Below, in pieces: positions 4,803-52,607 of a stretch of 64,000 nucleotides of DNA. Below the pieces are notes generated by a model that saw nothing but the letters and a program-made list of their open reading frames with translations, searched no databases and had not been told where the DNA came from. The stretch comes from Candidatus Absconditabacteria bacterium. GTDB taxonomy: Bacteria > Patescibacteriota > Gracilibacteria > Absconditabacterales > Absconditicoccaceae. Location of the stretch: positions 41,222-105,221 of the forward strand of contig JAQUDD010000004.1 in NCBI GenBank assembly GCA_028685875.1, given 5' to 3'. Both the position numbers and the translations under genes were made by a program. The stretch's first letter is position 1. The number at the start of each line of letters is the position of its first letter.

Positions 4803-6392
4803 TTACCCTCCTTTCATTGCCTCTATGAATCCGACAAAGAGCGGATGAGGGTGGAGCGGTCTAGATTTTAATTCTGGATGTGCCTGCGTAGCAATCATAT
4901 ATGGATGGTCTTTTATTTCTACTACTTCGGCCAATTCTCCATCCAAACTCGTCCCAGAGATAAGGAAACCCTTTTCTTCAAATTCTGGTCTGTAAGCATT
5001 ATTGAACTCATAACGATGACGATGACGCTCCGCTATTTGGAGTTTCCCATAGACTTTTTCTGCCAAACTTCCTTTTGTTAGGGCACAATCATAGCTTCCA
5101 AGTCTCATCGTTCCGCCTTTTTTTTCTATTCCCTTTTGATGTTCCATGAGATGAATCACTTGATGCTGAGCATCAGGAAAAAATTCTTCACTCGTCGCAT
5201 CAGGATATCCCAACACATTCCTAGCAAATTCTATTGCCATAATTTGTGAACCGAGACAGATTCCGAGATAAGGAATTTTATTTTCTCTAGCAAATTGTGC
5301 AGCCATCACCATTCCCTCAATTCCTCTGGTTCCAAATCCTCCTGGCACACAAATTCCACTATATCCAAGTAACATATCCGTTCCTTGTTTTTCAATTTCC
5401 TCAGCAGAAACAAAATCAATCTGAATTTTGATGTCTTTTCGATACCCAGCAACTTTTAGCCCTTCATTTAAGGAATAATAAGCATCTTCCAGAGAAACAT
5501 ACTTTCCTACCATTGCAATCTTTTTTACTTCTTTGGCATTCTGGATGTGGTCTACTAACTGTTCCCACTTTGAAAGATCTATTTGGGTTTGTGGAAAATG
5601 TAATGCCTGAAGGAGCGTATTTCCTAGGACATGTTTTTGATAATTTACGGGCACTTCGTAAATAGATTTTACCGTAGCACTAGGAATCACACACTGAATA
5701 GGTAATCCACACATCAGGGAGAGTTTTCTAATAATATCTTCTTCAACTGGCATATCTGCCCTCACTACCAAAATATCTGGGTCTATTCCTCTTGATCTAA
5801 GATCTCTTACGGAATTCTGAGCAGGTTTAGTTTTGAGTTCTTTGCTCGCTCCGAGATAGGGGACATATACGAGATGCACAAATACTACGTTCTCAGCCCC
5901 CAATTCTTGTCTAAGCTGACGCACAGATTCGATTAAATATTCATTCTCCATATCTCCTACCGTTCCTCCAATTTCCACAATAGAAATATCTGCTCCACTC
6001 TGCGTGAAGCCTTCTTTGATTTTTTCTTTAACGAGGGACGCTACATGAGAAATCACCTGCACGGTTTTCCCCAAGTATTCTCCTTTTCTTTCTCTTTCAA
6101 AAATTTCTTGATAAATTCTTCCTGTAGTCCAACTGGAATTTTTGGTCATATTGGTATCAATATATCTCTCATAATGTCCGATGTCCAAATCTGTCTCCGT
6201 TCCATCATCGGTCACAAATACTTCTCCATGTTCTATAGGATTCATCGTCCCAGGATCTACATTGAGATATCCATCAAATTTCTGCATAAAAATCTGATAG
6301 CCTGCAGCTTTAAGAATTGCTCCAATGCTTGCTCCCGTGATTCCTTTTCCGATTCCAGAGAGGACTCCTCCTGTAACACAGATAACTTTCAT
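4803..6392 (-). CDS. pyrG: CTP synthase
   Basis: A 529-residue cytoplasmic enzyme that converts UTP to CTP with glutamine as amino donor. The N-terminal synthetase domain starts at residue 1 (VTGGVLSGIGKGI nucleotide loop; KFDGYLNVDPGTMNP; HGEVFVTDDGTETDLDIGHYERY). The C-terminal class I glutamine amidotransferase domain has the nucleophile Cys in GICLGSQ and the His-Glu pair in AHPELKSRP. Length matches the usual ~535. The gene contains no in-frame TGA. It uses CGA once, at a poorly conserved position (AGY-CGA-KDIKI). It is monocistronic, flanked by a divergent HIT gene. Confidence 0.97.
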   Translation of the reverse strand: MKVICVTGGVLSGIGKGITGASIGAILKAAGYQIFMQKFDGYLNVDPGTMNPIEHGEVFVTDDGTETDLDIGHYERYIDTNMTKNSSWTTGRIYQEIFERERKGEYLGKTVQVISHVASLVKEKIKEGFTQSGADISIVEIGGTVGDMENEYLIESVRQLRQELGAENVVFVHLVYVPYLGASKELKTKPAQNSVRDLRSRGIDPDILVVRADMPVEEDIIRKLSLMCGLPIQCVIPSATVKSIYEVPVNYQKHVLGNTLLQALHFPQTQIDLSKWEQLVDHIQNAKEVKKIAMVGKYVSLEDAYYSLNEGLKVAGYRKDIKIQIDFVSAEEIEKQGTDMLLGYSGICVPGGFGTRGIEGMVMAAQFARENKIPYLGICLGSQIMAIEFARNVLGYPDATSEEFFPDAQHQVIHLMEHQKGIEKKGGTMRLGSYDCALTKGSLAEKVYGKLQIAERHRHRYEFNNAYRPEFEEKGFLISGTSLDGELAEVVEIKDHPYMIATQAHPELKSRPLHPHPLFVGFIEAMKGG

Positions 6393-23130: not shown

Positions 23131-23281
23131 ATATACTATGGATAAGAATGCACAGCAGATTTTTATTTTTTAGAAAAAGAAAAAAAGCCGATCACGAGGA
23201 TAGCTTCTTTTCTTATGGCTACTTCATATTGCTACGAAATAGCTATAAAGGAGAGATGGAATTAATAGATATGTCACATTC

Positions 23282-24102
23282 TATTATATTCAGCTGGGAA
23301 GCTGAGATATAACAACCCTGAAGATTCAGGCTAACCTGAGGTCTTCGTGAACAAGGATCTCTAGCAGATTACTCTACTATTTGATACAAAAGTTCCAAAT
23401 TATTTTGTAATTAAGAGTCTTTAGTATCTCAACAGATGCTTCGTGGTATCTTTTTTGATCATTCACTCATCACATACACTAGGGAAGCTAACTTTTGGAA
23501 AGCATATAGTAATATCTGCGGTTGAAGACTTTGCATTCTTAATGATATTCTCAATGCGATTATATATTACCTGAATAAGCGTCTCTTTCACTCATTCACA
23601 ACTTGCTTAAGGCTGACCAATATAAACTCTCATAACGCAATCAGATTTCTCTGACTACTGGAAGCTAACAAAAATGTTTTTCATAATTCTTGTTGCCGAA
23701 AGGAGTTAAAACTCATAGAGATTGATACTCTATAATGTCCCTTCATTTATACGGTGTAAGATATGCTAAATACTTTTCGATACTAATGATAAGTTAGTAG
23801 CGACTCATCGTGATAGATATCACTTTTCCTAATTTTGTAGAATAAAGTAATACAACACAATAAGAATCTAGGCATCTTGATAAGTTTCCTCTATCATTAT
23901 CTCCTTTATCCAGATGGACAAGTGAGGATAGCATCAGATTTACTCGATATTCCTTGGGAGGGAACAGTAGAAAACCTTTTAGTGACACTACCAAATACAA
24001 ATAGATTACCCATATACTATTAATGATCACATCCTCCTATATCCTAGAGCAATAATACAAGATCACTACCCGAGGATATAGGAAGACGTTTTTCTTTTTT
24101 TT
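23282..24102 (+). ncRNA. Large structured RNA candidate, copy A (~0.8 kb)
   Basis: No coding frame of note exists here under either code, yet blocks are nearly identical to copy B at 24121-24990. In order these are a hairpin TCAGCT-GGGA-AGCTGA (GNRA-type loop), a block with CCTGAAGATTCAGG and CCTGAGGTCTTCG, ATTATTTTGTAATTAAGA, CATAACGCAATCAG, the hairpin CAGATTTCTCTG, and TTAAAACTCATAGAGATTG. The end is a long stem CCTATATCCT/AGGATATAGG plus a T-rich run. A -10 box TATTAT at 23282-23287 precedes the first hairpin, so the RNA probably starts near 23294. Variable stretches lie between the blocks. Size is in the range of the GOLLD/ROOL/OLE giant RNAs, but I cannot assign a family. 23131-23281 holds no gene. 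Confidence 0.7.
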
Positions 24103-24120
24103 AAATTAGGAAGAGAAGTA

Positions 24121-24149
24121 TTGAAAAGCTGGAGATCACATTCTATTAT
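24121..24149 (+). promoter_or_regulatory. Promoter of RNA copy B
   Basis: TTGAAA (24121-24126) and TATTAT (24144-24149), spacer exactly 17. The -10 box and its CACATTC flank are conserved in front of copy A (23275-23287), while the -35 of copy A is weaker. Transcription would start at about 24156, at the first conserved hairpin. Confidence 0.7.
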
Positions 24150-24155
24150 ACTCAG

Positions 24156-24990
24156 CTGGGAAGCTGAAATATAACAACCCTGAAGATTCAGGCTAACCTG
24201 AGGTCTTCGTGAAGACTTATTCTCTATCTCTTCTAATTGCTTAGGAGAGATATTTGAAGACTAAAGTTCCGAATTATTTTGTAATTAAGAATGCAATAGT
24301 TTTCTCAGTAGACATAAGTGCCGCTATCTTTTTTAATCATTCACTCATTATCTCTCAGGGACTACCACTTTCACAAGTAGAAGTATTTACAGATAACAGT
24401 TGAAGACTTTGTAATCATAATTATGGTCTTAATATAGTAATACAATAGATGAATAAGGCGTCTCTTTCGCTTATTCACAGCTTATTTAAGGCTTTTCTAT
24501 CTTATCTCATAACGCAATCAGATTTCTCTGACTACTGGAAGCTCATAAAAAGGTTTTTCATATTCTTTATGGCCGAATAGCGTTAAAACTCATAGAGATT
24601 GATACTCTACAATAACTACTCTCAGATAGAATCTACTATATGCTAGATACGTTCCCCTGGGTATGATAAGTACACAAGGACCTTACATGATAGATATTAG
24701 CACTCCTACTTTGCTAGAATGTGATAATACAACATATAAAGAATCTAGATATCTCGATTCGTTTCCTCCATCATTATATCCTTTATACCCCAGCAGAACT
24801 GCGATACAAGTGACAATAGTATCTAATAGCGTCGATATTCCTTGGGAGGAACAGTACTCCATTATTGGATGATACCACTAATTACAAATGGATTAGCTCT
24901 CAAACTTTTAATGACCTCATCTTCCTATATCCTAGAGCAATAATGCAAGATCACTACCCGAGGATATGGAAAGATGTTTTTCTTCTTTAT
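24156..24990 (+). ncRNA. Large structured RNA candidate, copy B (~0.83 kb)
   Basis: A diverged second copy of the element at 23294-24102, with the same block order and spacing. At the helix 24544-24548/24567-24571 the pairing strands are CATAA/TTATG, against AACAA/TTGTT in copy A: two base pairs changed on both sides, which keeps pairing. The stem near 24450 (GAATAAG...CTTATTC around TCTCTTTC) is better paired here than in copy A. It ends with the stem CCTATATCCT...AGGATATGG and a T-rich stretch. Short open frames inside it do not match between copies and are not counted as genes. Confidence 0.7.
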
Positions 24991-25020
24991 CTAACGATAT
25001 TAGTATATTCGCAGATATAT

Positions 25021-25241
25021 ATTTGTCAAATTTTTTGACACTTTTTTTGGACTTTTTTATCATTCAGGTTTTTCTTCTTCATTGATAAGGTAAGTATATT
25101 CCCGAATCATCTTTTGTCAAATTTTTTGACACTTTTTTTGGACTTTTTTATCATTCAGGTTTTTCTCCTTTATTGATAATATAAGTATATTCCTGAATCA
25201 TCTTTTGTCAAATTTTTTGGCACTTTTTTTAGACTTTTTCC
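25021..25241. repeat. 91-bp tandem repeat, about 2.4 copies
   Basis: The unit begins TTTGTCAAATTTTTTGACAC, then seven T, TTATCATTCAGG and AAGTATATTCC, and repeats with a 91-base period (guide G at 25025, 25116, 25207). Each unit carries the inverted repeat TGTCAAA/TTTGACA followed by a T run, so each could act as a weak terminator. There are no spacers, so it is not CRISPR. It separates the large RNA units from guaD. Confidence 0.8.
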
Positions 25242-25300
25242 AACAGGAGAAAAACAGCTTTAGAAGCTGAATATTCTATTTTTTTTACTACTATAGTATT

Positions 25301-52086: not shown

Positions 52087-52240
52087 GCCCTTCATATAAT
52101 TGAGATAGTAAAAAATTGAGATAGTAAAAAAAAGTGGATTTCAATTTCCCTTTTTTCTTTATTAAACCATCAATACTATAACCAACGCTAGGCATTTGCT
52201 ACATCATTGGCACGATACCTTTATATTTTTTATAAGCAAA

Positions 52241-52607
52241 TGGAGGTGCGGAGAATCGAACTCCGGTCTAAAAGGCATGCATATCAACTTCTACCACGAT
52301 AGTCACTTTTTAACCAGAATTTTTTGAGTTATGATGCGCGGGAAGAAAAGAAAAGAGACAAACTTATTTTCTTATTTCTCATCACAACTTTTAGGTTTCC
52401 TACTTAAGTCTACCTCTCGCCTAGTAGGAGTCGAACGAAGAGGTTAATTACTGGCTAGACTAAGCGTAAGCTTTTACTAGTTCAGCTCTCGCAAGGAGAG
52501 ATTTTGATGCGTTAGCATTGTTTTTTGATTCATGTTATGCTCTAGAATCATCGAGCAGTGGCTATCAATATCCACGATATCCTTCCATCAAATCCAAAGT
52601 CACCCCC
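52241..52607 (-). ncRNA. ssrA: tmRNA (trans-translation RNA)
   Basis: About 367 nt on the minus strand. The 5' end GGGGGTGACTTTGGATTTGA pairs with the 3' end CACCTCC followed by encoded CCA, and the T-arm reads GGAGTTCGATTCTCC. In the middle a frame ends ...ELVKAYA then TAG, the presumable proteolysis tag; TAG (not TGA) is used as its stop, as this code requires. The region between the tag and the 3' end contains pseudoknot-like pairings. It rescues stalled ribosomes together with SmpB. Confidence 0.92.

Follow-up and report, generated by a model that had tools for sequence, protein, structure and literature searches.

On its minus strand, the window (the whole 64,000-nt stretch of Candidatus Absconditabacteria DNA that was analysed) very probably encodes a new class of giant structured RNA, about 850 nt long, insulated, strongly promoted and trans-acting, for which an architectural role is the most likely one. 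Two tandem units, A and B, represent the class: both are non-coding, they are 73% identical, and at ~0.85 kb each they occupy window positions 23274-24990. Unit B (24136-24996, minus strand, ~860 nt) would run from about 24995, a start placed by its -10 box, to 24136, where it ends in the conserved AAUAGAAUGUGA; unit A (23274-24100, minus strand) is ~830 nt long, and no promoter of its own was found. The whole functional unit is larger than first described, comprising a promoter array (25002-25240), B, A, and a terminator (23178-23213). Repeat finding and alignment of the window place the two copies 862-888 bp apart, and long identical blocks alternate with variable stretches in the alignment of A and B, the shared blocks including 78 nt at 97%, 282 nt at 76% and 85 nt at 89% identity, plus others. 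This similarity is far beyond chance, and blastn and sequence profiles recover further copies in other genomes. The two diverged tandem copies with a common block order that had been described from the letters of the window are confirmed by these repeat blocks and the alignment, and so is their lack of a coding frame: in the five full copies no shared open frame exists on either strand under genetic codes 11 and 25, and the longest stop-free runs span 48-106 codons over 771-934 nt, the 106-codon maximum being antisense to copy A in code 25.

The structured RNA is encoded on the minus strand, and all the lines of evidence agree on this. Alifold gives consensus energies of -272.9 kcal/mol (minus) versus -211.3 kcal/mol (plus); z scores of single-sequence folds range from -3.2 to -8.1 (minus) versus -1.3 to -3.7 (plus); and G-U cells outnumber A-C cells by 140:22 in the pairs predicted on the minus strand and by 57:20 in the pairs predicted on both strands. 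The initial annotation had assumed a plus-strand RNA, for which it can be said that the plus-strand consensus fold likewise beats shuffled alignments and that a near-consensus plus-strand promoter also lies inside two of the three 91-bp repeats upstream of the units (25035 and 25126). These promoters, however, direct transcription away from the units and have no near-consensus counterpart in the homologues, and no plus-strand promoter is conserved across the loci. With the G-U/A-C asymmetry, the fold energies, a GNRA loop and the direction of promoters and terminators all indicating the minus strand, an RNA on the plus strand is extremely improbable. The motifs that the initial annotation listed are real as plus-strand sequences but were read on the wrong strand: in minus-strand orientation, CAGATTTCTCTG becomes the GNRA hairpin CAGA-GAAA-UCUG, with a GAAA loop conserved in four of five copies, and what was called a "GGGA loop" becomes UCCC.

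The block of conservation that extends beyond the plus-strand 3' end of the units is a predicted minus-strand sigma-70 promoter with an A-tract (TTGACA-N16/17-TATACT). In the window it is present three times, as 91-bp tandem repeats (25002-25260), each with an A-tract, a TTGACA box, a 16-nt spacer and a TATACT box on the minus strand: P3 at 25184-25242 (TTGACA at 25211-25206, TATACT at 25189-25184), P2 at 25093-25151 (25120-25115 and 25098-25093), and the proximal P1 at 25002-25060 (25029-25024 and 25007-25002). At each of the homologous loci L010, L011 and L012 the promoter occurs once and faces the RNA everywhere, the -35 box being weaker (TTGCAA) in the copy at L010, in genome G005. The same A-tract with a promoter-like TTGACA...TATACT element is also found elsewhere in the window's genome (G000:C9:28301-28327, locus L031), at a contig end; as an RNA locus this match was rejected, for it has no RNA copy and, by eye, directly follows a restriction-enzyme-like gene. 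Upstream of the promoters, an intrinsic terminator on the minus strand (CAGCTTCTAAAGCTG-TTTTTCTCC, 25255-25269) ends an operon of pseudouridine synthase, DUF192 and deaminase genes, and is predicted to insulate the RNA unit from that operon; the same element, CGGCTTCTTAAGCTG-TTTTTC, is conserved at the equivalent upstream place in L010 (3923-3937, plus strand), despite a different upstream gene, one for a WG-repeat protein. At the other end, the predicted B-A transcript finishes at a minus-strand terminator hairpin, GAAAAGAAGCUAUC-CUCGU-GAUCGGCUUUUUUUC with a T-run (23178-23213), and the minus-strand fold of this region (23165-23290) has a z score of -4.7. Terminators on the RNA strand also follow the L011 copy (ATCCTGAACTTGTTTCAGGATCTTTTTTT) and the L010 pair (GTTAATCATTATGGTTAGCTTTTTTT), and none satisfying the scan criteria follows the L012 copy.

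Taken in order, then, the gene would consist of an upstream terminator, one or more sigma-70 promoters with an A-tract, the RNA, and an intrinsic terminator. Because no promoter lies between B and A, the two would be transcribed jointly, B first and then A, from the triplicated promoter, as a predicted primary transcript of ~1.8 kb with possible processing between them; and because this triple, near-consensus promoter carries A-tracts, expression is probably strong.

The gene neighbours differ at every locus, and the RNA is therefore an autonomous gene and not the leader of a particular operon. In the window the neighbours are the deaminase operon and dsbA; elsewhere they are lgt (L011), the WG-repeat protein gene and clpP (L010), and, judged from its translated open reading frame, a gene resembling copper or heavy-metal transporters (L012). 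The location of the RNA, downstream of the deaminase operon and codirectional with it, might suggest that it serves an adjacent gene as cis-acting leader or 3' UTR, but the upstream terminator intervenes, the unit is convergent with dsbA, and the neighbours differ in four of four loci, so that such a role is highly unlikely. At the far side of the L012 locus, 110-190 bp beyond the RNA copy, the contig ends in short tandem repeats of the AATTCGC type (positions 1-75).

The consensus fold of the minus strand comprises 224 predicted pairs and is 21 standard deviations more stable than shuffled alignments (60 alignments, columns permuted within gap and conservation classes). The number of pairs changed on both sides is 79, versus 22.5 +/- 4.4 expected from the shuffles; the alignment behind this count is shallow (three genomes, contributing five full copies and one with a deletion) and has modest covariation power, and it served for both prediction and counting, a circularity that is controlled for by shuffling the columns. 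In most helices 85-100% of the cells are paired, and compensatory changes occur in most of them. The covariation and the homologues together support the large structured RNA that the initial annotation had proposed.

As folded, unit B begins with a long 5' hairpin (CAUCUUUCCAUAUCCU.../AGGAUAUAGGAAGAUG, 24917-24977, minus strand, fold z -4.1) that is absent from the homologues in genome G001. Read from the sequences, the 5' and 3' ends of the G001 copies can instead pair with each other (in L011, for example, CAAGGAUAUAGGA with UCCUAUAUCCUUG), the hairpin's 3' arm being the 5' partner of the RNA 3' end, and in A and B local hairpins replace this end pairing. The predicted core domain of B (24408-24888, minus strand, ~480 nt) is closed by a long-range helix between UUUGUAAUU (24888-24880) and GAUUACAAA (24416-24408), in which 45 of 45 cells are paired; the equivalent helix in A joins 24001-23993 to 23538-23530 on the same strand. 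Within the core of B, all on the minus strand, are a 10-bp hairpin (24654-24680) whose stem differs in all copies, with seven pairs changed on both sides, and whose 7-nt loop CUUAUCA (24670-24664) is invariant in all five; the GAAA (GNRA) tetraloop hairpin that holds CAGATTTCTCTG (24514-24535); and an 11-bp hairpin (24449-24478), also with seven pairs changed on both sides, whose near-invariant loop reads AAAGAG(A/G) in five of five copies. A 3' domain follows the core and terminates in AAUAGAAUGUGA; its hairpin GAAG..UCAGG-UUAG-CCUGA..CUUC (24182-24208, minus strand) shows compensatory UCAAG/CUUGA and UUAGG/CCUAA in the homologues. All copies also conserve an unpaired segment, GAGG(A/U)AAC.

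Invariant loops on freely drifting stems fit a model in which the hairpins make tertiary, intermolecular or partner contacts; no self-complementary conserved loop was noticed among the predicted helices, and neither a partner nor an oligomer was found, which counts against such contacts. The same pattern would be expected of a trans-regulatory base-pairing RNA or sponge, in which the CUUAUCA and AAAGAG loops and the GAGG(A/U)AAC segment would bind mRNAs or ribosomal RNA: the 7-nt loops stay invariant while their stems change wholly, as one would expect of partner contact, and the segment is common to all copies. More than 200 conserved pairs and a core closed over a long range are, however, needless for antisense pairing, and the length also counts against this reading, regulatory sRNAs being usually 50-300 nt long; we regard it as a minority possibility. 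We prefer a structured RNA that folds into a large multibranched core shut by the long-range helix, with an additional 3' domain.

Homologues were found by blastn in two more species of the genus: two copies, on two contigs, in G001 and one full copy in G005, the full-length profile covering all five copies almost end to end. In G005 a second, tandem copy is internally deleted (L010 4878-5018 and 5131-5278, within 4878-5390); its 5' part and 3' domain remain, but ~450 nt of core are missing. The 5' part is ~70% identical to A and B versus 60% to its own neighbour, suggesting an old origin for the tandem arrangement. With covariance models of the core and the 3' domain, carriers amount to three of the eight genomes of one genus, five being without the RNA, and no other carrier appeared among 353 genomes of the class beyond chance-level matches. 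In a sample of 380 genomes of the phylum, only the window's own genome matched, and phage and plasmid collections gave no match. A pattern scan of 84,980 genomes returned only two relevant organisms, BNUE01 (SR1 bacterium MS502-49) and JAISMG01, and the patterns in the genome collection gave names to two of the carriers: SR1 bacterium MS502-49 and the metagenome-assembled genome Im510_bin22. These results support a class confined to some members of one genus.

The other matches were set aside as chance. Those of the pattern scan have higher GC and lack the rest of the element; those on viral contigs yielded nothing to model R1 in the 80 loci checked; and the weak covariance matches outside the genus (G061, G065 and others) include, for model R2, a stretch of G065 (L148 1501-1640) that lies inside a 517-aa open reading frame of another genus.

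Since five of the eight congeneric genomes are without it, the RNA is dispensable, and the earlier claim that two copies imply strong selection is unsupported. The dsbA surroundings of other congeners contain neither the deaminase nor the RNA and so offer no clean empty site. This patchy presence, with neighbours that differ from genome to genome and with tandem and dispersed copies, one of them internally deleted, could reflect a selfish or mobile RNA-coding element (a satellite or a decayed intron-like element) kept by duplication and not by host function. Against such an element, a repeat search of the window found no terminal inverted repeats at the unit ends, no transposase was seen beside the window locus or the homologous loci, no reverse transcriptase was found adjoining, phage and plasmid matches are absent, and full-length covariation at 56-73% identity amounts to sustained selection on the fold. 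We therefore consider it improbable, and favour an RNA whose structure is itself under selection.

In kind, the RNA is a giant ornate RNA, with hundreds of nucleotides of covarying conserved structure, but it falls into no named family. A cmscan search with all 4227 families of Rfam 15 found nothing at the gathering score for the RNA of the window; GOLLD, ROOL, OLE, HEARO and raiA are absent among the matches of A and B up to E 10 and gave no match in the three homologues up to E 0.5. The initial annotation's remark that the units recall GOLLD, ROOL or OLE in size and match none of them thus holds. Weak Rfam matches (mir-137, STnc100 and others) score below the cut-off and correspond to the dsbA terminator and the long 5' hairpin. 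Because the genome has both separately, the RNA is not a replacement for RNase P RNA (G000:C7:31049-31406, E 3.7e-27) or for tmRNA, which lies in the window itself (52238-52607, minus strand, RF00023, 69.7 bits). No description of the RNA was found in open-access papers, and a paywalled or unpublished account is possible.

Circularly permuted group II RNAs ("T-large", about 900 nt) were formerly listed among the giant RNAs (PMC8637638), and a divergent group II intron or an RNA of that type would share with the new RNA its similar size and a multidomain ribozyme architecture. Among the Rfam models, however, neither group II nor any other intron matches up to E 10, and in place of exons the copies are flanked by promoters and terminators of their own. 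The inspected helices, the GNRA hairpin CAGA-GAAA-UCUG included, contain no domain 5-like element; as neither domain 5 nor the exon arrangement is seen, the circularly permuted reading is unsupported, and a group II origin has very little probability.

The closer comparison is with GOLLD, ROOL and OLE, which form RNA-only multimers: GOLLD is a 14-mer cage, ROOL an 8-mer nanocage, and OLE dimerises and binds the membrane protein OapA (PMC12286853). The new RNA resembles GOLLD in size class, elaborate covarying secondary structure and patchy distribution, but has no Infernal similarity to it, is tandem-duplicated behind a triple promoter, and has no detected phage or tRNA association. Like ROOL (Rumen-Originating, Ornate, Large) it is a stand-alone, large and ornate RNA; again there is no Infernal similarity. 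With OLE it shares the character of a large conserved structured bacterial RNA, but neither Infernal similarity nor, at its loci, an OapA gene or other conserved neighbour.

By analogy with these three families, we tentatively suggest a trans-acting architectural role, as a scaffold or multimer, in which the RNA would act as a stable, abundant scaffold or as a self-assembling particle and the invariant loops would provide the tertiary, intermolecular or partner contacts. A more specific form of this proposal, which we put forward only as a speculation, is an RNA-only self-assembling particle of hetero-oligomeric make-up, its two paralogous subunits co-transcribed from the triple promoter, in a few species with genomes of ~1 Mb. 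To our knowledge, no hetero-oligomeric tandem-pair arrangement has been described for GOLLD, ROOL or OLE.

Very few classes of bacterial RNA are this large and complex, and what GOLLD, ROOL and OLE do is poorly understood (PMC12286853). The RNA described here would add a further, unrelated class, in a recoded SR1/Absconditabacteria genome of ~1 Mb, with strand, promoters and helices assigned. As a new class it would allow two questions to be tested independently, whether multimers are the rule among giant structured RNAs and why small genomes keep them, and the tandem paralogues A and B would provide a natural comparison between two subunits within one cell.
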